Notes: generated by a model not told the origin, from the letters alone. A stretch of DNA of 32,659 nt from Bacteroidales bacterium (GCA_021740045.1 JAIPAP010000047.1:1-32659); one strand, 5' to 3'. Positions 7,280-26,928 are shown, counted from the stretch's first letter. Numbers and translations: made by a program.

Positions 7280-8032
7280 ATGGAAGAAAACAGAAATGAT
7301 TACCACATTAGTTTCTTCAAACCGACTACACCCAGGGCTTTGGCAAACCGGAACATGGTTATATGGCTGGTTTCCATTTGGGTGGTAGCCATCTTTGGAT
7401 TTCAAATTGCGCTCAGGCTCCTGGAGAAACCCACTCCGGAAGCAGCTTATAAAAGCTTTGAATCCTCCTGGCCAAGCGTTAAATCCAACACGGCAAACCA
7501 GGAAGAATTAAAAGATTTTGCCGGCGCAACACTATCGGTTTTAGGAAAAGTTTTTATTGATGCCGGTGACAAAGCGGTCCTCGATAATGCCTTCAACCGG
7601 GCTGTATACCAAATCCTTGATGAGGGTCAAAAAGAGGCTTTGATACCGGAAATCAAAAATTTTGAAGCCTTGAAGGCAGAGATAAAAGTGGTTACAGAAC
7701 CCGACTATGTTAAAGCCAAGAAGGAACTTATGACCAAGGCTGCTCCCCTATTGGGAATACCTGAAAATAACGTCCTGCGCGACATCCTTCCGCTGGAGCT
7801 CAATACCGCTGAGATGAACACCGTTCGTCCCGAAACAATGAAACAGCTACCCGGGATTATGGAGAAATATTTGGTTCATAATCAATCGGTGCTTACCAAT
7901 TTTAAATTCCTGGGATTTCCGTTCCATTATTTTTATACGGCAGTGCTTCTGCTCATTCTCTTTGTATTCTTATGCTGGTTGTATTGCATAAGCGCCGACC
8001 GGCTAAATAAGAAATTCGACATCAGTGATTAA
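7280..8032 (+). CDS. DUF4212-like symporter small subunit with a large extracytoplasmic insertion
   Basis: The 250-residue protein has two transmembrane helices, about 26-48 (MVIWLVSIWVVAIFGFQIAL) and about 214-238. The first helix region and the C-terminal segment (FLGFPFHYFYTAVLLL, then a helix ending in ISADRLNKKFD) resemble the DUF4212 small subunit of bacterial sodium:solute symporters. Those subunits are normally about 80-110 residues. Here about 150 extra residues (roughly 55-205), rich in charged helices, sit between the helices and by positive-inside reasoning face the periplasm. The gene is first in the operon, directly before the SSS-family symporter, exactly where DUF4212 subunits usually lie. 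Its role is inferred as a symporter partner; the inserted domain is not recognised. Confidence 0.7.
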   Translation: MEENRNDYHISFFKPTTPRALANRNMVIWLVSIWVVAIFGFQIALRLLEKPTPEAAYKSFESSWPSVKSNTANQEELKDFAGATLSVLGKVFIDAGDKAVLDNAFNRAVYQILDEGQKEALIPEIKNFEALKAEIKVVTEPDYVKAKKELMTKAAPLLGIPENNVLRDILPLELNTAEMNTVRPETMKQLPGIMEKYLVHNQSVLTNFKFLGFPFHYFYTAVLLLILFVFLCWLYCISADRLNKKFDISD

Positions 8033-8118
8033 ATGAATTTTCACTGGCCTTTCATTTTCATCAATCAAATTACATCATATTAAAAACTGATTATCAACTA
8101 ATAAAAAATGCAAGCAAT

Positions 8119-9780
8119 ATGAAAAAAGCCATATTACTTTTCACAGGGCTAACTTCCACTCACTTGCTACAAGCGGCAACGGCTGCAACTGAACTCGAGG
8201 GAAGCTTTAAAATAGGTCCTGCTATTATCCTTATTGCTATTTTATTAACCTTTATCCTGGTTGGAATTTATTTCAGGGCAAAAGATACAACCGATTACTA
8301 TGCTGCCGGGAGGGGGATTTCCAAGGTTGGCTCCGGAATGGCTATTGCCTCCAATTGGATGAGCGCCGCCTCGTTTCTGGGCATGGCCGCTTTGATGTAC
8401 GGATATGGATATCATGGCCTTGCCTATGTTGTTGGATGGACGGGCGGTTATGTGCTGCTGCTCATCCTTATGGCCGGGCAGATCAGAAAATACGGTAAAT
8501 ATACGGCAGCCGACTTTATTGGTGACCGCTATTACTCACGGGCTCTGAGGGCGCTAGGCGCGGTTATTGCCATTTTGATCTCCATAGCCTATTGCGTGGG
8601 GCAATTTGGCGGTATCGGTCTTATGTTTAAATGGATCATGGGAATCGATTATGCCCTGGCAGTTATCATCGGGGGTGCAGTGGTTCTCACCTATACCCTG
8701 ATATCCGGTATGTTAGGGGTTACCAAAAATATGCAGATCCAATATGTGATCATTATCATCTCATTTCTTATTCCTTTGTTTATCCTAACCTATAAATTCG
8801 ATTACTTCTGGCTCATTCCCCAAATTGGTTATGGATCGGCCGTAAGTGACATCGTCTCAGGAATTCCCCTGGCCGAAACACAGCAGTTATACAATTCGCT
8901 GGGCCATCATTTTGCCATTGCTCCTTCGCCCGAGTATGCCATGCCCTGGGATACAGCCTCAGGACAATCGTTTTTTCAATGGATCGCCATTGCCTTTTCG
9001 CTTATGATAGGAACGGCCGGGCTACCCCACGTGATCCAACGGTTCTATGTTGTTCCAAAGGCACGTGACGCCCGCTGGTCGGTGGTATGGGGCTTGTTCT
9101 TTATTTGTATCCTCTATTGGAGTGCTCCGGCTTATTCGGCTTTTGGCAAAATTCTATCGGCCAACCCCGAAGTGGGCAAACTGGCTAAAGATGCTATTGT
9201 AGTTTATACCGCCCAGTTGGGCAACGTAAACCCGTTGATTGTAGGTCTCCTTGCAGCAGGCGGTGTATCGGCGGCCTTCTCCACGGTGTCCGGGTTGCTG
9301 GTGGCAGGCTCGTCAGCATTTGCACACGACTTATATGTTAAAAGCTTCAGACCCGATTCTTCACCCCGCCGGCAATTACTCGTTGCGCGTATCGGTACTG
9401 TGATTATGGCCATTATCGTTACCCTGCTGGCATTACCCCAATGGGCACTGATCGGGCAGTTGGTGGCAATTGCCTTTTCACTGGCCGGTTGTACCATCTT
9501 CCCCTTGTTTTTACTGGGAATTTGGTGGAGCGGTTCCAACCGTCAGGGTGCAGTGGCCGGTGTGATAGTGGGCTTGCTCGTTTCGGCGGTGTCACTCACC
9601 TATTCATTGGTTGGTGATTCTCTCCCCTATTACGACTTCGTTAGCTACTGGCTGGGAGCCTGGTATTTTGCATGGATAGGAGCACCCCTGGCGATTATTG
9701 CCAACATCATCGTATCCAAGCTAACCACACCAACACCCCTTGAAATCAGAAAGTTCTTAATCGAAAATGTACATTCTTAA
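8119..9780 (+). CDS. Sodium:solute symporter, ActP/VC_2705-like (SSS family)
   Basis: This 553-residue polytopic inner-membrane protein should import a small organic acid, most likely acetate or a similar short-chain carboxylate, with a sodium ion. It starts with a signal-like segment (MKKAILLFTGLTSTHLLQAA), as ActP proteins do. Family hallmarks include DYYAAGRGISKVGSGMAIAS after the first core helix, NWMSAASFLGMAALMY, then GRYT-like GKYTAADFIGDRYYS, TYTLISGMLGVTKNMQIQYV and GTAGLPHVIQRFY. About 13 membrane segments can be counted. The gene follows the DUF4212-like gene by 86 bp and overlaps the next gene by one base (TAATG), so they are co-translated. Substrate assignment rests on similarity and context only; pyruvate or propionate would also fit. 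Confidence 0.87.
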   Translation: MKKAILLFTGLTSTHLLQAATAATELEGSFKIGPAIILIAILLTFILVGIYFRAKDTTDYYAAGRGISKVGSGMAIASNWMSAASFLGMAALMYGYGYHGLAYVVGWTGGYVLLLILMAGQIRKYGKYTAADFIGDRYYSRALRALGAVIAILISIAYCVGQFGGIGLMFKWIMGIDYALAVIIGGAVVLTYTLISGMLGVTKNMQIQYVIIIISFLIPLFILTYKFDYFWLIPQIGYGSAVSDIVSGIPLAETQQLYNSLGHHFAIAPSPEYAMPWDTASGQSFFQWIAIAFSLMIGTAGLPHVIQRFYVVPKARDARWSVVWGLFFICILYWSAPAYSAFGKILSANPEVGKLAKDAIVVYTAQLGNVNPLIVGLLAAGGVSAAFSTVSGLLVAGSSAFAHDLYVKSFRPDSSPRRQLLVARIGTVIMAIIVTLLALPQWALIGQLVAIAFSLAGCTIFPLFLLGIWWSGSNRQGAVAGVIVGLLVSAVSLTYSLVGDSLPYYDFVSYWLGAWYFAWIGAPLAIIANIIVSKLTTPTPLEIRKFLIENVHS

Positions 9781-10571
9781 TGAATTTATTCCATAACAAA
9801 TCAACAAGGGTGTTCATCCTGGCGATGATTGCCCTTGTTGCTTCAGGTTTTTTTGTATCACATCTGTATTATGACCGGGAAAACAGTGCGATTGATCCCA
9901 GGGTAACCGGTATCAGGAAAGCATACGGGCAATTTGACCGGTATGCCGGCAGTAACGATTTTATCAGGGTCTTCAGGCTGCTGGATTCCATTGAGGGGGC
10001 ATACAACAACATCAAGCATTACCGTAAATCATTTGAGAAGGGCGTTTTGTATAACAACCGGGCGGCCGCCTATCTGACGTTAGCCTTGCATAGAGACAGC
10101 CTTCACCTGCCGGCCGATAATGTGCTTTACCGTATTTATACAAAGGACAGCCTTTTACAACTGGCTAACCACAATGTTGACAAAAGCCTGGAGATATACC
10201 ATAACTGGATAGACCGCTTTGAAAATAAAGATCCGGCCCGGGTCAGAACCATGATACGTAAAGATTTTTTATCGGGCTTAACCGCATATGAAGATCAGGA
10301 ACAAGAAAAATTCCTGGAAAAACGGATTGAGGAAATTACCGACGCCCAATTTGAAACCGCGCGAAGACTGTCGGTCAGTTATACCAACCGCGGTATTATT
10401 CAGCGTCATCAAAAGTTGTATAAGGAGGCAATACGGTCTTATCAAAAAGCGATTGAGCTCTGGGACCGCAACCTGACAGCCGAAAACAACCTAAACATCT
10501 TATTGGGTAAGCCCATCAAAAAACGAAATTTCATTCAAAAAATGTTTCCACCAAAAAAAGATAAAAAATAA
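9780..10571 (+). CDS. Membrane-anchored TPR-like protein of the symporter operon
   Basis: The 263-residue protein has one N-terminal membrane anchor (about residues 10-30) and an otherwise soluble, helical body that should face the periplasm. The segment around residues 196-245 (SYTNRGIIQRHQKLYKEAIR and QKAIELWDRNL) reads as at least one good tetratricopeptide repeat. A second helical pair may lie around 75-135. The C-terminus is very basic. The ATG overlaps the symporter stop codon (TAATG), which implies translational coupling, and the porin-like gene follows after 11 bp. I do not recognise a specific family. A scaffold or adaptor linking inner-membrane symporter and outer-membrane barrel is a guess from position and topology. 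Confidence 0.75.
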   Translation: MNLFHNKSTRVFILAMIALVASGFFVSHLYYDRENSAIDPRVTGIRKAYGQFDRYAGSNDFIRVFRLLDSIEGAYNNIKHYRKSFEKGVLYNNRAAAYLTLALHRDSLHLPADNVLYRIYTKDSLLQLANHNVDKSLEIYHNWIDRFENKDPARVRTMIRKDFLSGLTAYEDQEQEKFLEKRIEEITDAQFETARRLSVSYTNRGIIQRHQKLYKEAIRSYQKAIELWDRNLTAENNLNILLGKPIKKRNFIQKMFPPKKDKK

Positions 10572-10582
10572 AACATGGGATT

Positions 10583-11839
10583 ATGAGAAAACTGATTTTA
10601 GTACAACTCGGATTGATCATTTCGTGTAGTCTTTTCGCACAGGATAAAGCCCCTGACTTTGGGATTAAATTCAGCGGCTTTGTAAAAAATGATTTTTTCT
10701 ATGACACCCGGCAAACGGTAAATGCACGGGAAGGGCACTTTTTGCTCTGGCCGGCAGCGGAGTCGTTGGATAAAAACGGAGATGATATTAATGCAGAAGC
10801 CAGTTTTAACTTTTTATCCATCCAATCGAGGCTAACCGGAAAAATTACCGGTCCCGATGCTTTTGGCGCCAAAACATCCGGGGTGATCGAGGGAGCCTTT
10901 TTCGGTCATACCAATCCAGATATTAACGGCTTTAGGCTGCGGCATGCATTTGTTAAATTAAAGTGGGAAAAATCGGAATTACTTATGGGGCAATACTGGC
11001 ATCCGATGTTTGTTCCGGCCTGTTTCCCGGGCGTGGTATCATTCAATACCGGTTCGGGCATTCAGCCTTTTTCACGCAATCCACAAATTCGATTCACACA
11101 GCACTTCGGCAACTGGAAACTCTTTGGCGTGGCCTTTTCCGAACGCGATTTCGCCAGCCGCTGGACCGATCCCACCGGGAATACGATGGTAAGCAGTCAG
11201 TTTATAAGAAATGCCGGGATGCCATCCTTGCATGCGCAACTGCAATATACCAATAAAAATGAGGATGGCACCGGATTTACAGCCGGTGCGGGGGTGGGAT
11301 ACCTGGCTATACAACCCCGGCTGGTAACGGATTCGAACCTGGTAACGGATAAACTGGTTAGCGGGATTTCGGCCCTGGCCTATGCCAAATGGACAACCAG
11401 CCCCGTAACGGTTAAACTGGAAGCAGTTTATGGTGAGAATATGGCTAATGTACTGTTTTTTGGAGGCTATGCAGTTTCCGATATCAATGTGGCCACCAAC
11501 GAATACGAGTATACGCCCTTTTCCAACCTGGCGTTCTGGACCGATATACATACCAATGGAAAAAAGGTTCAGGTGGGCTTGTTTGCCGGCATGAATATGA
11601 ACAACGGCACTGCCAATCCCATTGTTGGCCAGGTTTACGGACTGGCGCCCAATATTTCCGGCGTAACCCGGGTAAGCCCCAGGATTATGTTTAACTCAGG
11701 TAAATTCAGGTTCTCAACCGAATTTGAATATACATCAGCAGAATATGGCGATGGTACTTATGATTCGGATGGTATACCCCAAAACACCTATACCGTCGAT
11801 AACATCAGGGTGCTTTTGGCCACATATTATTTCTTTTAA
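10583..11839 (+). CDS. Porin-like outer-membrane beta-barrel protein
   Basis: The 418-residue protein has a signal peptide ending in SLFAQ (about residue 20). The rest has alternating, aromatic- and glycine-rich strands typical of a beta-barrel, and it ends in LLATYYFF with a C-terminal phenylalanine, as outer-membrane barrels do. Segments such as DFGIKFSGFVKNDFFYDTRQ and LMGQYWHPMFVP resemble DcaP-like or related porins. It probably lets the substrate of the upstream symporter cross the outer membrane. It is the fourth gene of the operon, 11 bp after the TPR gene, and a hairpin terminator follows the stop codon by about 20 bp. The exact porin family was not established. Confidence 0.78.
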   Translation: MRKLILVQLGLIISCSLFAQDKAPDFGIKFSGFVKNDFFYDTRQTVNAREGHFLLWPAAESLDKNGDDINAEASFNFLSIQSRLTGKITGPDAFGAKTSGVIEGAFFGHTNPDINGFRLRHAFVKLKWEKSELLMGQYWHPMFVPACFPGVVSFNTGSGIQPFSRNPQIRFTQHFGNWKLFGVAFSERDFASRWTDPTGNTMVSSQFIRNAGMPSLHAQLQYTNKNEDGTGFTAGAGVGYLAIQPRLVTDSNLVTDKLVSGISALAYAKWTTSPVTVKLEAVYGENMANVLFFGGYAVSDINVATNEYEYTPFSNLAFWTDIHTNGKKVQVGLFAGMNMNNGTANPIVGQVYGLAPNISGVTRVSPRIMFNSGKFRFSTEFEYTSAEYGDGTYDSDGIPQNTYTVDNIRVLLATYYFF

Positions 11840-11859
11840 AAATCATAATTATCAAATAA

Positions 11860-11896
11860 TGCCGGCTTCGCATGATTGCAGGCCGGCACATTTTTT
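11860..11896 (+). terminator. Rho-independent terminator after the porin gene
   Basis: TGCCGGC (11860-11866) can pair with GCCGGCA (11882-11888) around a 15-nt loop, followed by a run of six T (11891-11896). It separates the symporter/porin genes from the phosphoesterase gene, or acts as a partial attenuator between them. It covers the upstream alternative start of the next gene at 11872. Confidence 0.65.
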
Positions 11897-11901
11897 CACC
11901 C

Positions 11902-12648
11902 ATGCGAATTGCCGTAATATCCGACATACACGAAGACATAGTGAGCCTCCAACTGGCTTTGAAGAAGATCGACAAAGCCGGATGCGATGAGGTGGTTTGC
12001 CTTGGTGATATTGCGGGGTTCAGCATTGCACATTACAATTATCACCATCATCGCAATGGTCATGAATGCATGAAATTGCTGCGCAAGCATTGCAAGATTA
12101 TCATTCCTGGAAATCACGATCTGGCGGCGGTTAAACGAATCCCTTCCGTTACACGCCATTTCCAGTTCCCTGATGATTGGCATGATATGGCCTATGTTGA
12201 AAAGAAATTCCTGGCCGAAGGAAAAGTATGGTTACATGAGGAAAATGAGTTGCAGCCCTTGTTTTCAAAGAAAGATATCGATTTTATCAACACTTTGCCC
12301 GAATACCGGATAATGACTGTTGATGATCACCATATATTGTTTTCGCATTACCTTTATCCGAACATTACGGGAATGGAGATACATTTTGTGGAAACCCCGG
12401 AAGCCATGCAGGCTCATTTTGATTTTATGGAACAACAGCAATGCACCATCAGTTTTACCGGCCATGCTCATCAACCGGGAATATTTATGGCCAGCCGCGG
12501 GAAAATAATCAAACCAGGATTTGGAAAGAAAAAAATAACAGCGAATCCTATTTGCATTGCTAGCCCTGCTATTGCAAACGGAAGAAATAGCAATGGATTT
12601 CTTATCTTTGACAGTGAAAAGCAACAAGTGGATTTTAAACGCTTATAG
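11902..12648 (+). CDS. Calcineurin-like metallophosphoesterase
   Basis: The protein is a cytoplasmic two-metal phosphoesterase of the YfcE/MJ0936-like group, with no signal peptide. Counting from the chosen start, metal ligands are D8 and H10 (SDIHED), D36 (LGDIAGF), N71 with catalytic H72 (PGNHDL), H149 (FSHYLYP) and the pair H188/H190 (TGHAHQPG); all five family motifs are present. An ATG 30 bp upstream (11872) is in frame, but it lies inside the terminator hairpin and adds ten residues ahead of the beta-1 strand, so 11902 is preferred. The gene sits 17 bp before the DUF294 sensor gene, suggesting that the two are co-expressed. It could hydrolyse a cyclic nucleotide or another phosphodiester; the substrate is unknown. 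Confidence 0.88.
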   Translation: MRIAVISDIHEDIVSLQLALKKIDKAGCDEVVCLGDIAGFSIAHYNYHHHRNGHECMKLLRKHCKIIIPGNHDLAAVKRIPSVTRHFQFPDDWHDMAYVEKKFLAEGKVWLHEENELQPLFSKKDIDFINTLPEYRIMTVDDHHILFSHYLYPNITGMEIHFVETPEAMQAHFDFMEQQQCTISFTGHAHQPGIFMASRGKIIKPGFGKKKITANPICIASPAIANGRNSNGFLIFDSEKQQVDFKRL

Positions 12649-12665
12649 CATTTTATTTTGAAATA

Positions 12666-15167
12666 ATGATGAACACAAAAATCTTCCGTAAATTCTTTAT
12701 GAGTATAGTCCTGCCTTCTATACTCACCATTGTTTTGTTCATCATTTCAATTTACCTGATCATTATTCCGGTTTTTGAAAAAAACCTGATGGATAGTAAA
12801 AAGGAAATGCTCAGTGAACTGACCAACACGGCCTGGAGCCTAATTGAGGAATACCACCGGGATTATGTCGATTCGGTTTACACCCTTAAAGAAGCAAAGC
12901 AATTGGCAGCCTCCAGGATAGAACTTATGCGGTATGGCGAAAACGGGAAAGACTATTTTTGGATCACCAATATGCATCCCCGTATGATCATGCATCCTTA
13001 TCGTCCTGAGCTTAACGGTGAGGACCTTACGGATTACACCGACCCGGAGGGCACTCGCCTGTTTGTTAAGGCCGTAAACAAGGTTAAAGAAAAAGGCAAA
13101 GGCTTTATTAACTACATGTGGCAATGGAAAGACGATTCAACACGCATTGTTCCCAAACTTTCCTATGTTAAAGGTTTTCCTGAATGGAACTGGATCGTGG
13201 GCACCGGAATTTACCTGGATGATGTACAACAGGAATTGCGGGCACTGCGCGGCCGCCTGCTGCGAATTTCATCGGTGATCACCTTGGTGATTGCTGCTTT
13301 GCTGTTTCTTATAGTGAAACAAAGCCTGCGAATTGACAAAAGACGCAATGAAGCTGAGAAAAGCCTCAAGGCATCCAGGGAAAAGTACCGCTCCCTGGTG
13401 GAAGCATCAACCGAAGGGACCTTAATGTTGCATAATGATGAGATTATTTTCTCCAACCAGAAATTCAATTATATGGCGGGTTGCAGCGGGCCAGACATTA
13501 AGCAAAAAGCCATTGGCGAATTATTCGACATCGATTGGCAAGAGGTGAAAAACAAGTTAAACGACTCGGGCATCTCGGTTTCGGTAGATACTGTGATCAA
13601 ATGCAACCTCCGGGAAAAGCCGGAGGTGGTTTTATCAGTCTCGAAGGTGAAACTTGGCGGAGAAGACAATTATGTGATTGTTTGTAAAGAAATGCCCCGC
13701 CACGTGAAACTGATACGTGAAACCGAGCACCTTGCCAGTGAATTGCAAACCTCCCTCCTGCTGATGAACCAACCGGTTCGTAATTATATCCAGGATATTC
13801 TTACCTGCAAAATGACCGATACCGTAGGTGAAGTAGCTAAATTGATGACCCGTAAGAACAAGAATGTGATTTTTGTTATGCTGGGTAAGGCATTGGTTGG
13901 TGTAGTAAATGACAGTGACCTTAAGAAAAGGGTTTTATCGCAGGGACTCGCCTCCGGCACCCCGGTTATGGAGATCATGTCGGCCCCGGTAAACACTGTT
14001 ACTGATACAACGTTGATCTATGAAGCAGCCCTGTTTTTTAATAATAAAAATATTTCCCACCTGGCCGTAAAAAATGCTACAGGTGAAATTATTGGCATCA
14101 TTGGCAAGGACGATATGCTTAACATGCAGCATAATGCATTGAGTTTCGTGGTAAAGGAAATTGAACAGGCAGAAGATATTTCGGGTATTAAGCGGGTTCA
14201 CGGACGAATTCCGGTTATTGTTCAATCGCTGCTCGACAGCGGTGCCCATACCTGGAATATCACCCGCATTGTCACCTCGCTTACCGATGCCATAACCAAT
14301 CGCGTGATCGAGCTGACCCTTGAAGAGATCGGAAAACCGCCTTGTGATTTCGCCTTTATTGTAATGGGCAGCGAGGGTCGCAAAGAGCAAAGCCTTGCCA
14401 CCGACCAGGATAACGGGATTATCCTTGCAGATCATACTGGGGGTGATGAAGAAAAGCGCAATGACTATTTTGAAAATCTCTCTAAACGCATCAATAAACA
14501 CCTTGATGACATTGGCATTCAATATTGCAAGGGCGATGTAATGGCACAAAACCCTAAATGGCGGCAAAAGCTTGGGGTGTGGAAACAATACTTTTCCGAT
14601 TGGATCAACGATGGTAATCCGCAAAGCCTGCTGGAAGTCAACATTTTCTTCGATTTCAGGTATATCTACGGGAATTCCGATTTGGTGGATGAATTAAGAG
14701 AGCATGTAAATTCCAGGTCGAAAGGCAAAGCAGTGTTCCTGCAGCATCTGGCCCAGAATGTGATAAAGATCAAATTACCCGGCATGCAAGGTGGTATCCT
14801 TGGTAGTAGCCCGGATGAAGATAGCTTCGACATTAAAAAGGTGATCATGCCCATAAGCGGTTTTGCCCGTATTTATGCCCTTCAGCATCAATTAACTGAG
14901 ACCAATACCCTGGAGCGACTGCATACGCTGAAGGAAATGGCGGTTTTGAACACATCGCTTTATGAGGAACTGGTACAGGCCTATGATCATCTGATGGCTC
15001 AGCGGTTTAAGGCACAAACGGCAAAAATTTCATCCAATGAGCCGGTGAATAATGAAATTGATATTAATAAACTCACCGAACTTGAAATATCCATCCTGAA
15101 AAAGATCTTTTCTCAAATCTCCGACATCCAAACCAAGCTGAGTTTTGATTTTAAAGGGACGGCGTAA
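12666..15167 (+). CDS. Membrane Cache-PAS-CBS-DUF294 signalling protein (putative nucleotidyltransferase)
   Basis: This 833-residue protein has a transmembrane helix at about 12-35, a periplasmic single Cache domain at about 40-195 (YGENGKDYFWITN, HPYRPELNGEDLTDYTDPEG, SYVKGFPEWNWIVGTGIY), and a second helix at about 200-218. The cytoplasmic part has a PAS-like domain (about 235-350), a CBS pair (about 375-490) and a DUF294 nucleotidyltransferase-like domain. The last has the GlnD-type signature GSEGRKEQSLATDQDN (568-583) with the metal-binding aspartates at 580 and 582. A helical DUF294 C-terminal region ends the protein. CBS-DUF294 proteins are known neighbours of ActP-type symporters, but here the module is joined to an extracellular small-molecule sensor. 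The inferred role is sensing a carboxylate and modifying a target protein by nucleotidyl transfer. ATG at 12669 is an alternative start. Confidence 0.85.
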   Translation: MMNTKIFRKFFMSIVLPSILTIVLFIISIYLIIIPVFEKNLMDSKKEMLSELTNTAWSLIEEYHRDYVDSVYTLKEAKQLAASRIELMRYGENGKDYFWITNMHPRMIMHPYRPELNGEDLTDYTDPEGTRLFVKAVNKVKEKGKGFINYMWQWKDDSTRIVPKLSYVKGFPEWNWIVGTGIYLDDVQQELRALRGRLLRISSVITLVIAALLFLIVKQSLRIDKRRNEAEKSLKASREKYRSLVEASTEGTLMLHNDEIIFSNQKFNYMAGCSGPDIKQKAIGELFDIDWQEVKNKLNDSGISVSVDTVIKCNLREKPEVVLSVSKVKLGGEDNYVIVCKEMPRHVKLIRETEHLASELQTSLLLMNQPVRNYIQDILTCKMTDTVGEVAKLMTRKNKNVIFVMLGKALVGVVNDSDLKKRVLSQGLASGTPVMEIMSAPVNTVTDTTLIYEAALFFNNKNISHLAVKNATGEIIGIIGKDDMLNMQHNALSFVVKEIEQAEDISGIKRVHGRIPVIVQSLLDSGAHTWNITRIVTSLTDAITNRVIELTLEEIGKPPCDFAFIVMGSEGRKEQSLATDQDNGIILADHTGGDEEKRNDYFENLSKRINKHLDDIGIQYCKGDVMAQNPKWRQKLGVWKQYFSDWINDGNPQSLLEVNIFFDFRYIYGNSDLVDELREHVNSRSKGKAVFLQHLAQNVIKIKLPGMQGGILGSSPDEDSFDIKKVIMPISGFARIYALQHQLTETNTLERLHTLKEMAVLNTSLYEELVQAYDHLMAQRFKAQTAKISSNEPVNNEIDINKLTELEISILKKIFSQISDIQTKLSFDFKGTA

Positions 15168-19748: not shown

Positions 19749-22316
19749 TTACCGCCCTATCAGCACAATCCCACTCCAGTCGAGGGGCAGTTCACCTTTT
19801 TCGATCATTTCCAGCTTGGCTTGCCGCAGGGCATCGGAATAGCTATCTCCTTTAAGCAGATGGCTATAGAATGCGGTGATCAAGTCCTTGGTCTTTTCAT
19901 CATGAACCTTCCATAAAGAGGCAATCAGGTTGGGTACACCGGCAAAAATAAATCCGCGCGGAAGGGCAAACACCCCCTCTCCTTCCAGGATTTTACCGGT
20001 TCCACTTTTACAAGCACTTAATACCACCAGGTCGGTATTTAGTTGCATGGAAAAAAGTTCATTCACAAACAAAAATCCGTCTTTGTCATGCTGTTTTGAA
20101 ACCTTTTCGGGTTGACTGAAAAACAAACCCGAAAAAGCAGGATTGTCTTTTGAAGAAACCCCATGAGTGGCTACATGCAAGATGCGTGAAGAAGGCAACT
20201 GCCTGAAATTTTCCTCAGTGGCTTCAGCACCGGTTATCATCTGCGTTTTAAAACCATTGATCCCAAACATTTCATCAATGGCCTCAACTTCGTGTATTGA
20301 ATGAGGTAAGGAAACCAATTCCCATTCATTCAAATTAATAATACCTTCCTCGGCCAGCACTTCCAGGCTTCGGTAGGTATTGTTCCCGGCCAGTTCGGCG
20401 TATTCTTCCTTCATAAAGCCCGGTGCAAAGAGGGTAACCGCCAACTCCTCCCGTTCCTCTACGTTGCGCCTCGAATCGGCCCACAGCCGTGCTGAATAAT
20501 GATAGGTAATGGCATGATCATTTATCATTTCCCGGTTTTCCCCGGGAATGTTCAAGGCTTCAAAAGGTATGTTGTGCAGTATATTGTCGGGGATAATGAT
20601 CAGATTTTGCTTATGGGCCAATTGGTTATAAATGGGCTCAACAAGATATTGGGTGAGCTTGTATTTCATTTTGGTTGATCCCGTTTTTATACCCCTGAGA
20701 AAATCGCGATAAGCCGAATTAAAATCTTCATCCTTTTCAATTCTTTTAACAACAGTTTCCGAGGCGGTACTGCAAAAAATATTGAGGTATTCACCGGCTT
20801 CGGTATATTCGATGAGGGCCTCATGTTCGTTCAGATTTTTCCTGATCTCTTCCAGGCTAATATTGAAGCGATTAAGATCCACACCGGCCCCTTGTTCCGA
20901 TTGGCTTTTGATGGTATTTTTAATCCCTATTAATTTTGTCTTTTTAGCCAGCATAAGAAGCTCCAGTGAATCTTTATCACTACCGGAAGTGACCTGTGCC
21001 TGGTTTTGTATTTCCCGCAACTCTTTCTCGAGCTCTGTCTCCATTGAGTTTGCCTCTCTCAAGCTGTTTGATGATTTCGTCTTATGCATTTGGTAGCTTA
21101 ATAACCATCCCTTGGTAGCGCTGGCAAAGTCATAAATTTCATTACGATAATCATAGGTGGAATCAATCTGTTTTAATTGCCAGGCCAGCTTAATAGCTTC
21201 TTCATATCCGGCCTTGTTAATTGCCATCAGGCGGGGCAGGTTTTCTTCCGTCTGGCTTTGCTGCAGTATGTTAACCAAGGTATCCATTGCTTTGTAATGA
21301 TTTAAAGCCAGCTTCAACCAAGTGGCGTCTTTATTTTGTGCAAACAAGATTTCGAAAAAATCTATCTTGAGCATTAATGGCTGCAATACACCGCTGGTGT
21401 TGGTATGATTTCCCAAATTGGGCGGAAGGTAATGGTAATCATGGTCGAGACCCTCATCCGGGAAATTGGTGAGCATGCATTTTTCAACGTAATTCAGTCC
21501 CTTTTCAGCCTCACCTTTCATAAAATACAAATTCCCTAAGTAATAATAGGATGTAGCGGTTTTATGCGCCTTGGGACCAAATAGTTCCTTATTAATTTCC
21601 AAAGACTTCTGTCTAAGCATAATGGCTGAATCAATCTTTCCCTTCAGGGCAAGGGCCCTGGAAAAGTTACCGTAATTCGAGGCTTCACCTTCAGGATTAT
21701 TGCTTGTGTCCTTTAAAACTGTTTTTAGGGCTAAGCGACTGTATTTCAATGCTGAGTCGGCATTTTGCAAAAAGTTGTAGCTCATGGCCAGATTCGAATA
21801 AGCCTTTTGGAGCAACATAGCATTTAACGGTTCAGCCTCAAGGGTATATTTCAGGCTTTTTGTATATGGGTTGATAGCTTTGTCAAAAGCACCTTCGGCC
21901 AGGTAGGTAAATCCAAGTGCATCCAGAATAGCTGCGTTCAGGTGATCAAACTCTTTCCCGTTTTCCCGTAGCATATGCCATGCTCTTTCTGCCAACTGCC
22001 GGGCCAGGAAGGTGTGCGTTAAAGCCATCGATTTGGACATTGTCAGCATCAACGATGTCTTTTCCTTTGTAGTAAGTTGTTCCCCATATTGGGTAATAAC
22101 CCGGTGAAACAGTTCATGAGCCTTATTGGGTTTCGTTTTTAAATAGTGCTTTATCGAGTCCGTAAGCTTTAATGCTGCTTGTCTTTCGGTGCTTATACGA
22201 TCCGAAACAGTAAGATGATGATCACCTGTGGTTTGCGCGTATGAAAATGACAATATGAAACAGAAAATGGCTGATATAAGGGTTGCTCTCATCCCCAATG
22301 AGCTGATCAAATACAT
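19749..22316 (-). CDS. Secreted TPR-CHAT protein (caspase-like protease domain)
   Basis: This 855-residue protein has a cleavable signal (ISAIFCFILSFSYAQ); ATG at 22292 (residue 9, MRATLIS) is an equally good or better start. Residues about 60-330 hold helical tetratricopeptide repeats (for example DALGFTYLAEGAFDKAINPY, TATSYYYLGNLYFMKGEAEK). A coiled-coil-rich linker covers about 400-500. The C-terminal CHAT domain (about 540-855) keeps the caspase-like dyad: histidine in HVATHG (H718) and cysteine in LSACKSGTG (C769). Many CHAT proteins are cytoplasmic and act in cell-death or cleavage systems; here the protein is exported, which is common in Bacteroidota but of unknown function. No partner gene is adjacent. 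The C-terminal LIASLWKVHDEKT is also family-typical. Confidence 0.9.
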   Translation of the reverse strand: MYLISSLGMRATLISAIFCFILSFSYAQTTGDHHLTVSDRISTERQAALKLTDSIKHYLKTKPNKAHELFHRVITQYGEQLTTKEKTSLMLTMSKSMALTHTFLARQLAERAWHMLRENGKEFDHLNAAILDALGFTYLAEGAFDKAINPYTKSLKYTLEAEPLNAMLLQKAYSNLAMSYNFLQNADSALKYSRLALKTVLKDTSNNPEGEASNYGNFSRALALKGKIDSAIMLRQKSLEINKELFGPKAHKTATSYYYLGNLYFMKGEAEKGLNYVEKCMLTNFPDEGLDHDYHYLPPNLGNHTNTSGVLQPLMLKIDFFEILFAQNKDATWLKLALNHYKAMDTLVNILQQSQTEENLPRLMAINKAGYEEAIKLAWQLKQIDSTYDYRNEIYDFASATKGWLLSYQMHKTKSSNSLREANSMETELEKELREIQNQAQVTSGSDKDSLELLMLAKKTKLIGIKNTIKSQSEQGAGVDLNRFNISLEEIRKNLNEHEALIEYTEAGEYLNIFCSTASETVVKRIEKDEDFNSAYRDFLRGIKTGSTKMKYKLTQYLVEPIYNQLAHKQNLIIIPDNILHNIPFEALNIPGENREMINDHAITYHYSARLWADSRRNVEEREELAVTLFAPGFMKEEYAELAGNNTYRSLEVLAEEGIINLNEWELVSLPHSIHEVEAIDEMFGINGFKTQMITGAEATEENFRQLPSSRILHVATHGVSSKDNPAFSGLFFSQPEKVSKQHDKDGFLFVNELFSMQLNTDLVVLSACKSGTGKILEGEGVFALPRGFIFAGVPNLIASLWKVHDEKTKDLITAFYSHLLKGDSYSDALRQAKLEMIEKGELPLDWSGIVLIGR

Positions 22317-22505: not shown

Positions 22506-22613
22506 TTATAATCCAACTCTAAGAAAGGCCTTATAGAAAAAATAAATAACCAATACAACAGCTAAAATGCTTAGCAAAAAGGTAATGATATCGTATTGAT
22601 TTATGTTATTAAT
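22506..22613 (-). CDS. Possible 35-residue single-span membrane peptide with a non-ATG start
   Basis: This frame overlaps the end of the PepSY-like gene by a few bases and stops at 22506. It encodes a short hydrophilic start (NINQYD), then one clear hydrophobic helix (IITFLLSILAVVLVIYFF) and a basic end (YKAFLRVGL), as in small bitopic membrane proteins. There is no ATG; ATT at 22611-22613, just after a purine-rich AGGAAG, or the ATA at 22602-22604, would have to serve. The amino-acid pattern is strikingly membrane-like for chance, but the start problem keeps confidence low. Confidence 0.28.
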   Translation of the reverse strand: MNNINQYDIITFLLSILAVVLVIYFFYKAFLRVGL

Positions 22614-23130
22614 CTTCCTCTATTCCCAAAAATTCACCCCTGGCATCATACATAAGCTCAATGATCTGGTTATTATGCTTGATTTCCACATCATAAGTGA
22701 TGGCTCCATCCGGATGGGTGATTTCATCGGCTTCGAGCATTTTAGCGTCTGGATATCTGTTCTGAATATCACTTTTAATAACCTGGGGTAGCTCATTGGG
22801 GTCAATCTCGCGCTCGTTTTCGTCATTGTCATCGCCATGTTCATTTTCACCTTCTTCATCATCGTCTTCACCTTCCTCACTTTCAATTTCGGTAAAAATC
22901 TGGTTCCCGTCCTTATCATAAACCACTTCCTTTTCCTTACCGTTCACCTCAAATTCGGCAATATAATAACCATCTTCTCTTTCCCATTCCACATCACTGT
23001 ATTCGGGGTTTTGGGATTTAAAGCTGTTAATAATGCTTTCCGGGACATCATCCGAAGGGACTGTTTTTGATTGATCATTGCTGCAGGCAGCAAGAAAAGC
23101 CATCATTATTAAAATCATCAATATTTTCAT
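22609..23130 (-). CDS. Lipoprotein with two PepSY-like domains
   Basis: The 173-residue protein has a lipobox at LAAC (cysteine 16), so it is anchored to a membrane facing the periplasm. Two similar units follow, about 28-80 (PESIINSFKSQNPEYSDVEW, EFEVNGKEKEVVYDKDGNQIF) and about 112-170 (PQVIKSDIQNRYPDAKMLEA, VEIKHNNQIIELMYDARGEF). Each has the helix-then-sheet pattern of PepSY-like (beta-lactamase-inhibitor-like) domains. The linker is very acidic (around 82-110, nearly all D and E). Such proteins often lie next to two-component systems in Bacteroidota; the histidine kinase gene is just upstream on the same strand, 96 bp away. A ligand- or metal-binding periplasmic role is an inference. Confidence 0.85.
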   Translation of the reverse strand: MKILMILIMMAFLAACSNDQSKTVPSDDVPESIINSFKSQNPEYSDVEWEREDGYYIAEFEVNGKEKEVVYDKDGNQIFTEIESEEGEDDDEEGENEHGDDNDENEREIDPNELPQVIKSDIQNRYPDAKMLEADEITHPDGAITYDVEIKHNNQIIELMYDARGEFLGIEED

Positions 23131-23157
23131 AAGGATCTGTTTTTAATTAGTATTGAA

Positions 23158-23165
23158 CAAAAATA
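23158..23165 (-). promoter_or_regulatory. Possible -7 box of the PepSY-like gene
   Basis: TATTTTTG on the minus strand, 27 bp before the ATG at 23130 and within the 96-bp gap after the kinase gene. It suggests that the lipoprotein can be transcribed separately, perhaps as a target of the adjacent response regulator. No good -33 element. Confidence 0.38.
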
Positions 23166-23226
23166 ATACAGGATTCTGAAGAAATTCTGTGGATATAATG
23201 CTATCTGAAATATTTGGGGATTGTTT

Positions 23227-24489
23227 TTATTCTTTAAAATACCCAAACAAAATCCGTATTTCATGCCATTCATTATACAAGTTATAGCTGATTTTCCAAC
23301 CTTTGATTTCACATATTTTTTTTGCTATAGCCAATCCCAATCCCAATGATCGGGATGATGGCACCCCTTTCACAAAGCGCTCAAACATTTTATCCGGCGG
23401 GGAATTCAAAGTTGGGCCGGTATTGCCTATTTTTAGCATATTGTTATTAAGTTCAATTCTGATCTTTCCATTGCTAACATTATGTTTGATCGCATTACCT
23501 ATTAGATTGGAAAGTAGCGTATTAACTAATAATGGATCTGTTGTAACAAGCACCCTGTTTTCAAGGGATTTTTCTATAGTAATATTTTTAGTTGCCGTTA
23601 AATCTTCAAAAAGTTTCAGCGTATTAGTGAGAGCTTCAGCCATATCGATTTCCGCAGCTTGAGAAAATTGCCGGTTTTCAATCTTGGCCAAAAGCAATAA
23701 AGAATGATTAAGGCGTGATAATTGCCTTGCAGCCACAAGCGCTTTGTTGATCTGCTTAAGCTGATCTTCACTTAACTCCGGATGCTGTATTGTTTCCTCT
23801 AATTTTGTATGCAAAACAGATAATGGGGATTGCATTTCATGTGAAGCATTTTCTGTAAATTCCTTTAATGTTTGATAGTCAGTCTTGATCTTTTCAGTAA
23901 GCTTACAAATGGCCTGATTCAATTCTTTAAACTCAGTGATACCGGAATCTTTAAGTTGGATGGGCTGCTCTTTCTCCAATGAGTATGATTTTAGTATTTC
24001 GAGGTTTTGGTAAAAAGGCTTCCAGGTGTTTTTGGAAATGTAGTGGTTAATAAGGTACAAACCCATAAACAGGAGAGCAAGCACGCCCCCCAAAGTTAAA
24101 CCAATATTTCCGATGTAATCATGAGGCTCAAGTACCATCTGCCTGAGAGTGATGCGATACGTTTCCCCGTTTATGTTTTCTATTGATATTAGTTCCTTAA
24201 ACAATTCCGATTCCTTTTCAATAGGATCATACAAGGTGGTATCATTTATTATTAACTTACTTGCATGGTTTCCTGATAAGATCTCAATTTTCATCACCGG
24301 AGGGAGGTTTGTGATTTTTTCTCCATTAGCCAACTTTTGACTGATACGTTGCTTGTTTATGTACAATTTCTCTGTTATTTCATCTTCGAAGAAGGCCGTC
24401 ATCAGGCAATATAGTGACAGGCCGGCTAGAATTAGAATTGCGCTGGACATCACCAAATAAATACGACTTGTCTTTTGCAACAATTTCAT
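23227..24489 (-). CDS. Sensor histidine kinase
   Basis: The 420-residue protein has two membrane helices (about 10-32 and about 130-152, IGLTLGGVLALLFMGLYLI) flanking a periplasmic sensor segment of about 100 residues. Then come the HisKA dimerisation domain with the phospho-accepting H217 in ENASHEMQSPLSVL and a HATPase_c domain with N-box NLIGNAIKHN, an F-box MFERFVKG and G2 box SLGLGLAIAKKI. The G1 box reads KIGNTGPTL: the usual aspartate of DxGxG is an asparagine, a form often seen in this Bacteroidota subgroup. Its ATG overlaps the response-regulator stop by 4 bp (ATGA), so the two are co-translated. The signal it detects is unknown; the neighbouring PepSY lipoprotein may take part. Confidence 0.93.
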   Translation of the reverse strand: MKLLQKTSRIYLVMSSAILILAGLSLYCLMTAFFEDEITEKLYINKQRISQKLANGEKITNLPPVMKIEILSGNHASKLIINDTTLYDPIEKESELFKELISIENINGETYRITLRQMVLEPHDYIGNIGLTLGGVLALLFMGLYLINHYISKNTWKPFYQNLEILKSYSLEKEQPIQLKDSGITEFKELNQAICKLTEKIKTDYQTLKEFTENASHEMQSPLSVLHTKLEETIQHPELSEDQLKQINKALVAARQLSRLNHSLLLLAKIENRQFSQAAEIDMAEALTNTLKLFEDLTATKNITIEKSLENRVLVTTDPLLVNTLLSNLIGNAIKHNVSNGKIRIELNNNMLKIGNTGPTLNSPPDKMFERFVKGVPSSRSLGLGLAIAKKICEIKGWKISYNLYNEWHEIRILFGYFKE

Positions 24490-25163
24490 TTTTCGGTAAA
24501 TTTATATCCCATACCATAAACTGTTTTTAAATAATCTTCACCACCCTTTTCCCTGATTTTTCGTCTCAGGTTCTTAATATGAGTGTATATAAAGTCATAA
24601 TTGTCAACAAAATCAATTTGATCACCCCAAAGGTGTTCTGCAACAGCCTCACGGGTAATTACACGGTTTTTGTTAATGATCAAGTAAAGCAAAAGCTCAT
24701 ATTCTTTTTTAGTTAAATCCATTTCTTCCCCCTTAACATACACTTGTTTTGCCGAGGTAACAATTTCGATCTCATGAAAGGTGAGCCTTTCCTTCCCCTG
24801 CAAATTTCTTCTCCGGTTGATGGCATTGATCCTGGAGTTTAGCTCAGCTAAATGAAAGGGTTTAGTAATGTAATCATCAGCTCCAAAATCAAGACCTTTG
24901 AGTTTATCGTCGAGTGAATTTTTCGCCGAAATGATCAATATGCCAGTTTGTGTATGAAGATTTTTGATGTTTTTAATTAACTCCAATCCATTTCCATCCG
25001 GAAGCGTTATATCGAGAATAACAAGGTCGTATTCATGAACCGCCAGTTTATCTTCGGCAGTTAAATAATCAGGGGCCTGTTCGCATAAAAATCCCTCCCC
25101 TTTAAGGTAGCTAACAATGGAATCGAGCAAATCCCTTTCATCTTCAATAATTAAGATCTTCAT
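24486..25163 (-). CDS. OmpR-family response regulator
   Basis: The 225-residue protein has an N-terminal receiver domain with acidic pair E7/D8, phospho-acceptor D51 (LVILDITLPDG), switch serine around 79 and conserved K101 (DYITKPFHLAEL). The C-terminal winged-helix DNA-binding domain runs from about 125 to 225 (LTKKEYELLLYLIINKNRVI, EHLWGDQ, TVYGMGYKF). It is a cytoplasmic transcription factor, partner of the kinase encoded just downstream with a 4-bp overlap. The predicted -7 box ends 4 bp before the ATG, so the message may be leaderless. Likely targets are its own operon and the PepSY-like gene. Confidence 0.95.
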   Translation of the reverse strand: MKILIIEDERDLLDSIVSYLKGEGFLCEQAPDYLTAEDKLAVHEYDLVILDITLPDGNGLELIKNIKNLHTQTGILIISAKNSLDDKLKGLDFGADDYITKPFHLAELNSRINAINRRRNLQGKERLTFHEIEIVTSAKQVYVKGEEMDLTKKEYELLLYLIINKNRVITREAVAEHLWGDQIDFVDNYDFIYTHIKNLRRKIREKGGEDYLKTVYGMGYKFTEK

Positions 25164-25167
25164 TTTA

Positions 25168-25198
25168 CAAAATTATAATTATGCAAGATAAGGGTCAA
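25168..25198 (-). promoter_or_regulatory. Predicted promoter of the two-component system
   Basis: On the minus strand TTGA (25195-25198), 19 bp, TAATTTTG (25168-25175). The -7 box ends only 4 bp before the regulator ATG at 25163, so the transcript would start at or next to the start codon. Confidence 0.45.
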
Positions 25199-25218
25199 CT
25201 TTGAAGGAAAATTGAAGA

Positions 25219-26928
25219 TTAATACCCCGCAGCCTGCCCGTCCTTACGTGATTCGGAAGCCCCGTAGTAAACCTTGTGTTCAGCATCCCACATAATGGCC
25301 TGGTAACCGCCATAACCTCCTATGTTGTATTTCACGGCATGCCCCTTACGCATCAGGGTGCGAATGGTTTCATAATCAAAGCCCGATTCCAGGTTTACCT
25401 CTCCCCCATCGGTCATTTGCCCGCCGGTGGGCTGTGATGAACCGCCATGACGAATACGGGGTGCATCGCCGGCTTCCTGAAGGTTCATTCCAAAATCGAT
25501 CAGGTTCATCACCACCTGCGCATGACCCTGGGGTTGCATAGAACCACCCATCACGCCAAAACTGATATAAGGTTTGCCGTCTTTGGTAATGAAGGCCGGA
25601 ATGATGGTATGGAAAGGCCGTTTACCTGGCTCATACACATTGTAATGCCCTTCTTCCAGTGAAAACAGCTCACCTCTGTCCTGAAGCATAAACCCCAGTT
25701 TGGGCGGTACCATGCCCGATCCCATACCGCGGTAATTGCTTTGGATTAGGGAGACCATATTCCCGTGCTTATCGGCCACGGTAAGGTAAATGGTTTCGCC
25801 TTGTTCGAGTTTACCGGCATCGTAGTTTCTGGCTGCCCGGTCGGGATTGATGAGTTCGCGGCGCTTCTCTGCATATTCTTTGGAGATTAATTCTTCCACC
25901 GGGATATCGTTAAACTCAGGATCAGCGTAATATTTGGCGCGGTCTTCAAAAGCCAGCTTTTTAGCTTCCACAAAATGATGAATATATTTGGCGCTACCAA
26001 AACCCATTTCAGCTACATTATAGCCTTCCATGATATTCAGAATCTGGAGGGCCGCAATACCCTGTCCGTTTGGCGGTAATTCCCACACATCATAACCGCG
26101 GTAATGGGCCGAAACAGGTTCCACCCATTGCGATTTATGGTTGGCGAGGTCTTCTTCACTCAAAAATCCGCCCTGCGATTGAATGAAACCGGCAATGGTT
26201 TTGGCCATTTCTCCTTTGTAAAAAGCATCCCGGCCGCCTTTGGCAATCTTTTCATAGGTGTCGGCAAGGTAGGGATTTTTGAAAACATCACCTTTCCGCA
26301 AGGGTTCTCCATCAGGCATATAAATCTCCTCAAAATTGGGGTATTGCTTAAAATGATAGGCCGACCTATGCAGGTAATGTCCGATCACTTCGGTCACCGG
26401 AAAACCATTACGGGCATAATCGATAGCCGGGGCCAAAATATCCGTCATGGATTTGCTGCCGAATTTCTTATGCAACTCAAACCAACCGTCCACGCATCCG
26501 GGAACTGTTACCGGCAAAGGCCCGTATGCCGGGATCTTTTTCATTTCATTTTCCTTGAAATATTGCAGGCTAAGCTTTTCGGGCGAACGGCCACTGGCAT
26601 TCAATCCGTAAAGCTTTTCATCCCGGGCGCTCCAGACAATGGCAAAGAGATCACCACCGATCCCGCTACCGGTCGGTTCCATCAATCCCAGGGATGCATT
26701 GGCGGCAATGGCTACGTCAATGGCATTGCCACCTTGCTTTAGAATATCCACGCCAATTTGGGTAGCCAAGGGGTGACTGGTGGCCACCATACCGTTTTGT
26801 GCCATCACCTCGGAGCGGGTGGCGAAATTATGCCCTGTAATCCTATCCTGACCATCTGCATTCATAAAGCTCAGCATTAAAAACAATAAAGCAATACTAA
26901 TTATTTGCAAGTATTTCATAATATTCAT
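25219..26928 (-). CDS. ggt: Gamma-glutamyltransferase
   Basis: The 569-residue precursor has a signal peptide (MKYLQIISIALLFLMLSFMNADGQ after a possible MNI extension) and should be periplasmic or extracellular. It belongs to the N-terminal-nucleophile family that self-cleaves and transfers or hydrolyses gamma-glutamyl groups, for example from glutathione. The large-subunit part has NAIDVAIAANASLGLMEP and GSGIGGDLFAIVW near residues 52-86. The self-cleavage site is at T379 in GETIYLTVADKHGNMVS, where the threonine becomes the nucleophile. The small subunit shows SNYRGMGSGM, GKRPFHTIIPAF and FGVMGGSMQPQGH. The variant TIYLT instead of the classical TTHxS places it near the YwrD-like branch. 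The gene follows the decayed toxin gene and precedes the two-component system by 55 bp. Confidence 0.93.
   Translation of the reverse strand: MNIMKYLQIISIALLFLMLSFMNADGQDRITGHNFATRSEVMAQNGMVATSHPLATQIGVDILKQGGNAIDVAIAANASLGLMEPTGSGIGGDLFAIVWSARDEKLYGLNASGRSPEKLSLQYFKENEMKKIPAYGPLPVTVPGCVDGWFELHKKFGSKSMTDILAPAIDYARNGFPVTEVIGHYLHRSAYHFKQYPNFEEIYMPDGEPLRKGDVFKNPYLADTYEKIAKGGRDAFYKGEMAKTIAGFIQSQGGFLSEEDLANHKSQWVEPVSAHYRGYDVWELPPNGQGIAALQILNIMEGYNVAEMGFGSAKYIHHFVEAKKLAFEDRAKYYADPEFNDIPVEELISKEYAEKRRELINPDRAARNYDAGKLEQGETIYLTVADKHGNMVSLIQSNYRGMGSGMVPPKLGFMLQDRGELFSLEEGHYNVYEPGKRPFHTIIPAFITKDGKPYISFGVMGGSMQPQGHAQVVMNLIDFGMNLQEAGDAPRIRHGGSSQPTGGQMTDGGEVNLESGFDYETIRTLMRKGHAVKYNIGGYGGYQAIMWDAEHKVYYGASESRKDGQAAGY

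Follow-up and report, generated by a model that had tools for sequence, protein, structure and literature searches.

Six genes on the + strand of a 32,659-nucleotide stretch of DNA from a Bacteroidales bacterium (GCA_021740045.1 JAIPAP010000047.1:1-32659, analysed as a whole and called the window below) probably form a conserved module for the uptake and sensing of a short-chain monocarboxylate such as acetate, propionate, pyruvate or a similar acid. On the best reading, the locus encodes a carboxylate symporter of three inner-membrane parts, a porin that belongs to it and a sensor for periplasmic carboxylates, the output of which would be a putative nucleotidyltransferase/phosphodiesterase pair. 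The complex, its substrate, its coupling ion and the write/erase output are what we infer from the observed gene content, conservation, neighbourhood, motifs and predicted folds and topology. The unit has two layers: a near-fixed core of small subunit, symporter and TPR protein, which the porin usually follows, and a movable cassette of phosphoesterase and Cache-DUF294 sensor that lies after the core on the same strand, convergent to the core, or elsewhere in the genome. The six genes stay together in many uncultured relatives among the Bacteroidales, and the predicted importer differs from its best-known relatives in having a larger subunit and an additional, anchored partner. The features of the module are:

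7280-8032 (+): small symporter subunit of the DUF4212/TIGR03647 type, 250 amino acids, two membrane helices (Pfam/NCBIfam; AlphaFold2 predicted local distance difference test score, pLDDT, 88)
7427-7885 (+): helical insert of about 150 residues in the small subunit, amino acids 50-202, predicted to be periplasmic (alignments of 15 and 55 homologues; control loci)
8119-9780 (+): sodium:solute symporter (SSS) large subunit, TIGR03648/ActP-related, with an N-terminal extension (TIGR03648, 501.3 bits; own clade in tree)
9780-10571 (+): membrane-anchored TPR protein, predicted to be N-in/C-out, i.e. periplasmic (Pfam TPR_1, 2.7e-8; membrane helix at amino acids 8-31)
10583-11839 (+): DcaP-like outer-membrane porin with a signal peptide, by predicted fold (AlphaFold2, Foldseek, VIA-align)
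11860-11894 (+): intrinsic terminator, hairpin at 11860-11888 and then a T run (folding energy)
11902-12648 (+): metallophosphoesterase with intact metal motifs DxH, GD, GNHD and GHxH (Pfam Metallophos_2; start by homology)
12666-15167 (+): Cache-PAS-CBS-CBS-DUF294-DUF294_C membrane sensor, 833 amino acids (Pfam; membrane helices at amino acids 6-42 and 196-223)
12786-13238 (+): periplasmic ligand-binding domain (sCache_2), its carboxylate pocket of the PscD type (PDB matches 4k08 and 5g4y; pocket residues)
13797-14123 (+): CBS domain pair, cytoplasmic (Pfam CBS, two stretches)
14205-15152 (+): DUF294 nucleotidyltransferase-like domain and DUF294_C (Pfam, 5.1e-48 and 1.4e-31)

An earlier note on this DNA had interpreted the locus as a carboxylate uptake-and-sensing module, an interpretation that is partly supported. 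The six genes that it placed in one direction are all present as open reading frames on the + strand (7280-8032, 8119-9780, 9780-10571, 10583-11839, 11872/11902-12648 and 12666-15167), with the spacing that it gave: the second and third genes share one base at 9780 (TAATG), 11 bp separate the third gene from the fourth (start at 10583), and 17 bp the fifth from the sixth (start at 12666). Its family assignments agree with Pfam and NCBIfam (DUF4212, the TIGR03648 symporter, TPR, metallophosphoesterase, and sCache_2, CBS, DUF294 and DUF294_C in the sensor), with PAS below threshold in the window protein; its porin-like barrel is a barrel with a signal peptide in the AlphaFold2 model, closest to DcaP; and the terminator that it saw in the middle of the module is a strong hairpin between the porin and the phosphoesterase. 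The start of the phosphoesterase is most likely 11902 (MRIAVISDIHED) and not 11872, because homologues align from 11902 and 11872 falls within the hairpin.

Conservation of the core and mobility of the cassette

A scan of GTDB representative contigs with an alignment of seven TPR sequences yielded 80 loci, in which clustering of neighbours recovered the TPR gene 80 times, the symporter 74, the small subunit 68, the porin 60, the Cache-DUF294 gene 38 and the phosphoesterase 32 times; the next family after these six is found at 7 of the 80. The neighbourhood comparison that the earlier note had put forward as its own test thus finds homologues of the TPR, porin and Cache-DUF294 genes adjoining the symporter in related genomes. 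The symporter lies directly upstream of the TPR gene in 76 of the 77 loci uncut by a contig end, usually at a spacing of -1 to 50 bp (a count that includes L071 and L093, where the genes are adjacent and the predicted starts over-long; the automated count is 74), and a long small subunit lies upstream of the symporter in 68 TPR loci, with 11 others cut by contig ends. The sole uncut symporter without an adjoining TPR gene among TPR-bearing genomes is that of G180, in which the TPR gene and the symporter/small-subunit pair are on different contigs (L043 and L049). Some genomes contribute loci to two sets (L030 and L054, for example, each lie on a 27,624-bp contig), so the counts are not independent. 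The module is spread over many families of the order and also occurs in metagenome-assembled genomes labelled Cloacimonadota, Delongbacteria, Spirochaetaceae and Alphaproteobacteria, where short contigs could be contamination.

Co-occurrence was counted over 198 genomes sampled evenly from the order, with Fisher p values that ignore relatedness. The symporter is found in 19 genomes and the full-length TPR protein in 19, with 18 shared (18:1:1:178, p 2e-23); the one symporter without a TPR gene (G170) is on a contig that ends 176 bp past the symporter match, which makes it uninformative. The symporter also co-occurs with the Cache-DUF294 gene (14:5:20:159, p 9e-9), and the Cache-DUF294 gene with the phosphoesterase (25:9:6:158, p 8e-19).

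In genomes without a symporter of the window type, the cassette or the Cache-DUF294 gene is often beside a DUF485 gene and an ActP/MctC-like symporter (L157, L158, L159, L161; the DUF485 and symporter families were tested in L158 and assigned by clustering in the other three), and at L154 and L156 the cassette or gene is beside an ActP/MctC-like symporter alone. These neighbourhoods link the sensor independently to monocarboxylate transport. A sensor that follows more than one kind of acid transporter supports a functional link while arguing against a sensor specific to the window symporter. The description of the system as self-contained in the earlier note suits the window and fails in general, since the cassette is often elsewhere or beside ActP/MctC-like symporters.

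In two genomes that both have the core elsewhere, Cache-DUF294/phosphoesterase pairs adjoin genes of the Asp-Al exchanger family (at L170:5154-6743) and the citrate-transporter family (at L172:4119-5888), which suggests that the cassette joins further acid transporters. A Crp-like regulator, whose cluster ranks next in frequency after the six module families, adjoins the module or Cache-DUF294/ActP loci (L095:5074-5760, L157:8725-9411, L158:5205-5894); the two that were tested, L095 and L158, have cNMP-binding and HTH_Crp_2 domains. A Cache-histidine-kinase output next to the module was rejected as a candidate: the convergent reading frames of 908-1152 amino acids at L031, L034 and L046 are UvrA-like or DNA polymerase III, and the convergent reading frame at L045 is another Cache-DUF294.

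The symporter, its small subunit and the TPR protein

The window symporter passes the curated cut-off of TIGR03648 (320.75) and fails the equivalogs for ActP (TIGR02711, 184.2 versus a cut-off of 1099.25) and MctC (NF058657, 203 versus 670). Symporters of the window type form one clade in a quick tree (Shimodaira-Hasegawa-like approximate likelihood ratio test, SH-aLRT, 99), on a long branch to ordinary TIGR03648 proteins and with an unsure root. Residue 79, part of a motif conserved in the first core helix, is Asn in 77 of 77 clade members and Asp in 15 of 16 ordinary relatives. This position would correspond to Asp55 in PutP, a residue that the use of Na+ requires, and to Asn64 in vSGLT, so Asn79 may signal a change in how ion or substrate is handled and not that Na+ coupling has been lost.

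The small subunit passes the curated cut-offs of both DUF4212 (43.8 bits, cut-off 30) and TIGR03647 (36.4, cut-off 26.05), and departs from the ordinary pattern, in which two helices joined by a short loop make up about 80-100 residues. Its membrane helices are separated by the helical insert of about 150 residues, which is conserved in 55 homologues and had been overlooked before; at ordinary TIGR03648 loci of other Bacteroidota families, the small subunit has 82-103 amino acids where recognised, with an outlier of at least 121 in G445. The positively charged N- and C-termini predict a periplasmic location for the insert. Foldseek matched no PDB chain to the whole small-subunit model at E <= 0.001, and VIA-align gave Z scores no higher than 7.1, as generic helical bundles do, a result that fits a new and a known fold alike. 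A literature search on DUF4212 found no paper.

In the TPR protein, one repeat scores above the cut-off (33.7 versus 27.8) and the remaining sequence has no family match. The protein is predicted to be periplasmic because it has a single N-terminal membrane helix and the positive-inside rule is satisfied in 57 of 61 homologues. No TPR gene of the window family was found at the ordinary TIGR03648 loci of other Bacteroidota families. The lengths of the insert and the TPR protein correlate (rho 0.60 over 61 loci, uncorrected for relatedness and with one mismeasured row), and at L128:7738-10618 the shortest insert (about 86 residues) coincides with the shortest TPR protein (208 amino acids). An orphan TPR homologue with one in-frame TAG (L047:9300-10019), in a genome without the symporter (G166), is probably a relic.

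The VC_2705-family symporter (TIGR03648) with its DUF4212 small subunit (TIGR03647) belongs to the same two families in the same order; the window differs by the insert, a symporter clade of its own, Asn79, the extra TPR gene and the N-terminal extension. ActP-YjcH and MctC are likewise SSS symporters with a small two-helix partner, and the same Cache-DUF294 cassette adjoins such symporters in other genomes of the order. In contrast, the window has DUF4212 rather than DUF485, its ActP and MctC scores are far below the cut-offs, and no TPR gene was seen at the ActP/MctC-like loci.

The porin

The AlphaFold2 model of the porin (pLDDT 88.7, predicted template modelling score 0.84, 44 homologues) is a barrel bearing a signal peptide, and by this predicted fold it is a DcaP-like porin. 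The top Foldseek match is DcaP (6eus, E 1.3e-19), followed by a malate-bound structure of Omp32; VIA-align superimposes the model on DcaP with Z 31.1 and a root-mean-square deviation of 2.7 over 326 aligned residues, above all other porins (next best Z 24.9). The likeness to the DcaP outer-membrane channel is one of predicted fold, at 18% identity and with no Pfam match for the window porin or for five relatives. The claim that a porin was added specifically here does not hold, because 115 of the 198 sampled genomes have the family, which in other Bacteroidota is also encoded ahead of ordinary symporters with a short DUF4212 subunit (L138, L140, L144).

The sensor and the phosphoesterase

The sCache_2 domain of the sensor passes its cut-off of 25 with 146.7 bits, and the DUF294 domain (162.9 bits) belongs to a family in which the motif G-S-x-x-R-x-E...D-x-D is found in 43 of 43 homologues; the PAS match of the window protein falls short of the Pfam cut-off, and most homologues match PAS weakly. 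Six of the seven contact residues of the PscD pocket are identical in the sensor (Y90, W92, H103, Y143, W145, K156), among them all four hydrogen-bonding residues and both Trp, and these six are invariant in all homologues aligned at those positions; M129 of PscD alone varies, being A or F (also S or L) among homologues. The PscD pocket is known from a crystal structure, with glycolate and acetate as the best ligands (23 and 31 µM), then propionate and pyruvate (PMC5062169). Judged by its residues, the sensor pocket is of the C2/C3-carboxylate Cache type. The window sensor has this carboxylate pocket in common with the single-Cache chemoreceptor domains of PscD and Adeh_3718, from which it differs in having A or F for M129 and in the joining of the Cache domain to PAS-CBS-DUF294 rather than to a chemotaxis signalling domain. 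It fails the model of the MctS sensor kinase (NF052443, 102.7 versus 700), to which the Cache part alone matches.

The phosphoesterase matches Metallophos_2 with 57.0 bits (cut-off 27), and 29-30 of 30 full-length relatives have the metal motifs. The literature that was searched says next to nothing on what DUF294 does. An ordinary short-DUF4212 locus (L140) lies beside acetyl-CoA synthetase and DUF294 genes. Near two other ordinary short-DUF4212 symporters, a cNMP-CBS-DUF294 protein adjoins an RNase_T-type exonuclease (L141:8212-10791 and L143:1789-4388; the families were tested in L141, and L143 was assigned by size and position), which looks like another nucleotidyltransferase/nuclease pair. 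These loci resemble the window in that a DUF294 protein and its hydrolytic partner are neighbours of a TIGR03648 symporter, whereas the window has Cache-PAS in place of the cyclic-nucleotide domain and a metallophosphoesterase in place of the exonuclease. It is because the DUF294 and metal motifs are intact, and because of this analogous pairing at ordinary loci, that a write/erase output is proposed for the cassette.

Proposed mechanism and alternative explanations

In the proposed mechanism, the DcaP-like porin would let the carboxylate anion through the outer membrane, the symporter and the small subunit with its periplasmic helical domain would carry the anion over the inner membrane, and the anchored periplasmic TPR protein would, in most lineages, join symporter and small subunit as one complex. 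The membrane sensor with the PscD-type Cache pocket would detect acid of the same kind on the periplasmic side; the cytoplasmic PAS, CBS and DUF294 domains of this sensor may constitute a ligand- and adenylate-controlled nucleotidyltransferase with the transporter or carboxylate metabolism as its target, and the phosphoesterase would take off the mark made by DUF294. A fuller version is speculative and rather unlikely: a three-subunit Na+/carboxylate symporter in which insert and TPR protein make a periplasmic platform, possibly reaching the porin, and which is controlled by a portable sensor of periplasmic acid. This sensor would nucleotidylate a target reversibly, with the phosphoesterase resetting it. 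We know of no Cache sensor for which an output by reversible nucleotidylation has been described. SSS symporters are generally regarded as one or two proteins, and a conserved third component with an enlarged periplasmic subunit would, if true, be a new architecture among them. The occurrence of the Cache, DUF294 and phosphoesterase cassette across acid transporters offers a concrete test bed for the function of DUF294, and the module would reveal how poorly known Bacteroidales of sediments and the sea acquire short-chain acids, which are key currencies of anaerobic food webs.

Several observations weigh against an uptake-and-sensing module of this composition. Many loci lack the sensor cassette or have it unlinked, and in the window a real terminator (-20.1 kcal/mol, z -3.83, then T6) divides the four transport genes from the two sensor genes; comparable hairpins occur at 5 of 18 porin-phosphoesterase junctions of relatives, versus 1 of 56 TPR-porin junctions. 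No TPR gene was found in five genomes of the f135/f180 lineage that were searched (one of them 74% complete). The window genome has acetate kinase and no detectable AcsA N-terminal domain (ACAS_N), so the link to acetate is indirect, and the cell may activate acetate via acetate kinase or use another acid. The activities of DUF294 and the phosphoesterase are putative, being read from motifs only.

Transport and sensing may belong to two devices that are often neighbours, one a carboxylate transport operon and the other a general carboxylate/energy sensor that serves central metabolism and not the transporter. This is a distinct though lesser possibility, favoured by the terminator between the halves, by the occurrence of the cassette alone or beside other transporters, and by 20 TPR loci that have no nearby Cache-DUF294 gene despite a long enough contig. 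It sits less well with the co-occurrence of symporter and Cache-DUF294 gene genome-wide even when unlinked (14 of 19 genomes with the symporter versus 20 of 179 without), and with the repeated position of the cassette, when away from a window-type symporter, beside another monocarboxylate-type SSS.

The TPR protein could be an assembly or stability factor for the symporter, neither a working subunit nor a linker to the porin, which is possible and on balance improbable. Strict adjacency and translational overlap with the symporter gene would fit such a factor, as would 14 uncut loci that have the TPR gene and no nearby porin. So would its absence from the f135/f180 lineage, which has kept the symporter, the small subunit with its insert and, where they can be seen, the porin and sensor. 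The TPR protein is thus not obligatory, and the idea that the insert requires it is ruled out. The f135/f180 symporters nest inside the clade, with TPR-bearing lineages outside them (the rooting of the tree being unsure), and loss of the TPR gene in this lineage is, subject to the root, the simpler reading. Against a mere assembly factor stand its retention in nearly all lineages and the insert as a plausible docking partner, the length of which correlates with that of the TPR protein.

The acid transported or sensed may instead be another carboxylate (lactate, glycolate or a C4 acid), or sensor and transporter may handle different acids. This is somewhat unlikely: the A or F at the M129 position of PscD, the deep split of the symporter clade from ordinary TIGR03648 proteins and its invariant Asn where 15 of 16 have Asp would all allow it, and the unchanged four hydrogen-bonding residues and Trp pair of the pocket speak against it. 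Chance, or mere co-inheritance, is a very improbable source of the neighbourhood, favoured only by the shared ancestry of some loci, since exactly the six families of the window recur in the 80 TPR loci while other neighbours change, and do so across many families of the order and in differently labelled metagenome-assembled genomes.

Other features of the window

The window has no Rfam match and no tRNA. On the opposite strand, and unlinked to the module, a protein of 855 amino acids (19749-22316, -) combines TPR repeats with a C-terminal CHAT (caspase-like) domain. A row of genes at 22609-26928 (-) encodes a PepSY-like protein, a histidine kinase, a response regulator and a gamma-glutamyltranspeptidase.

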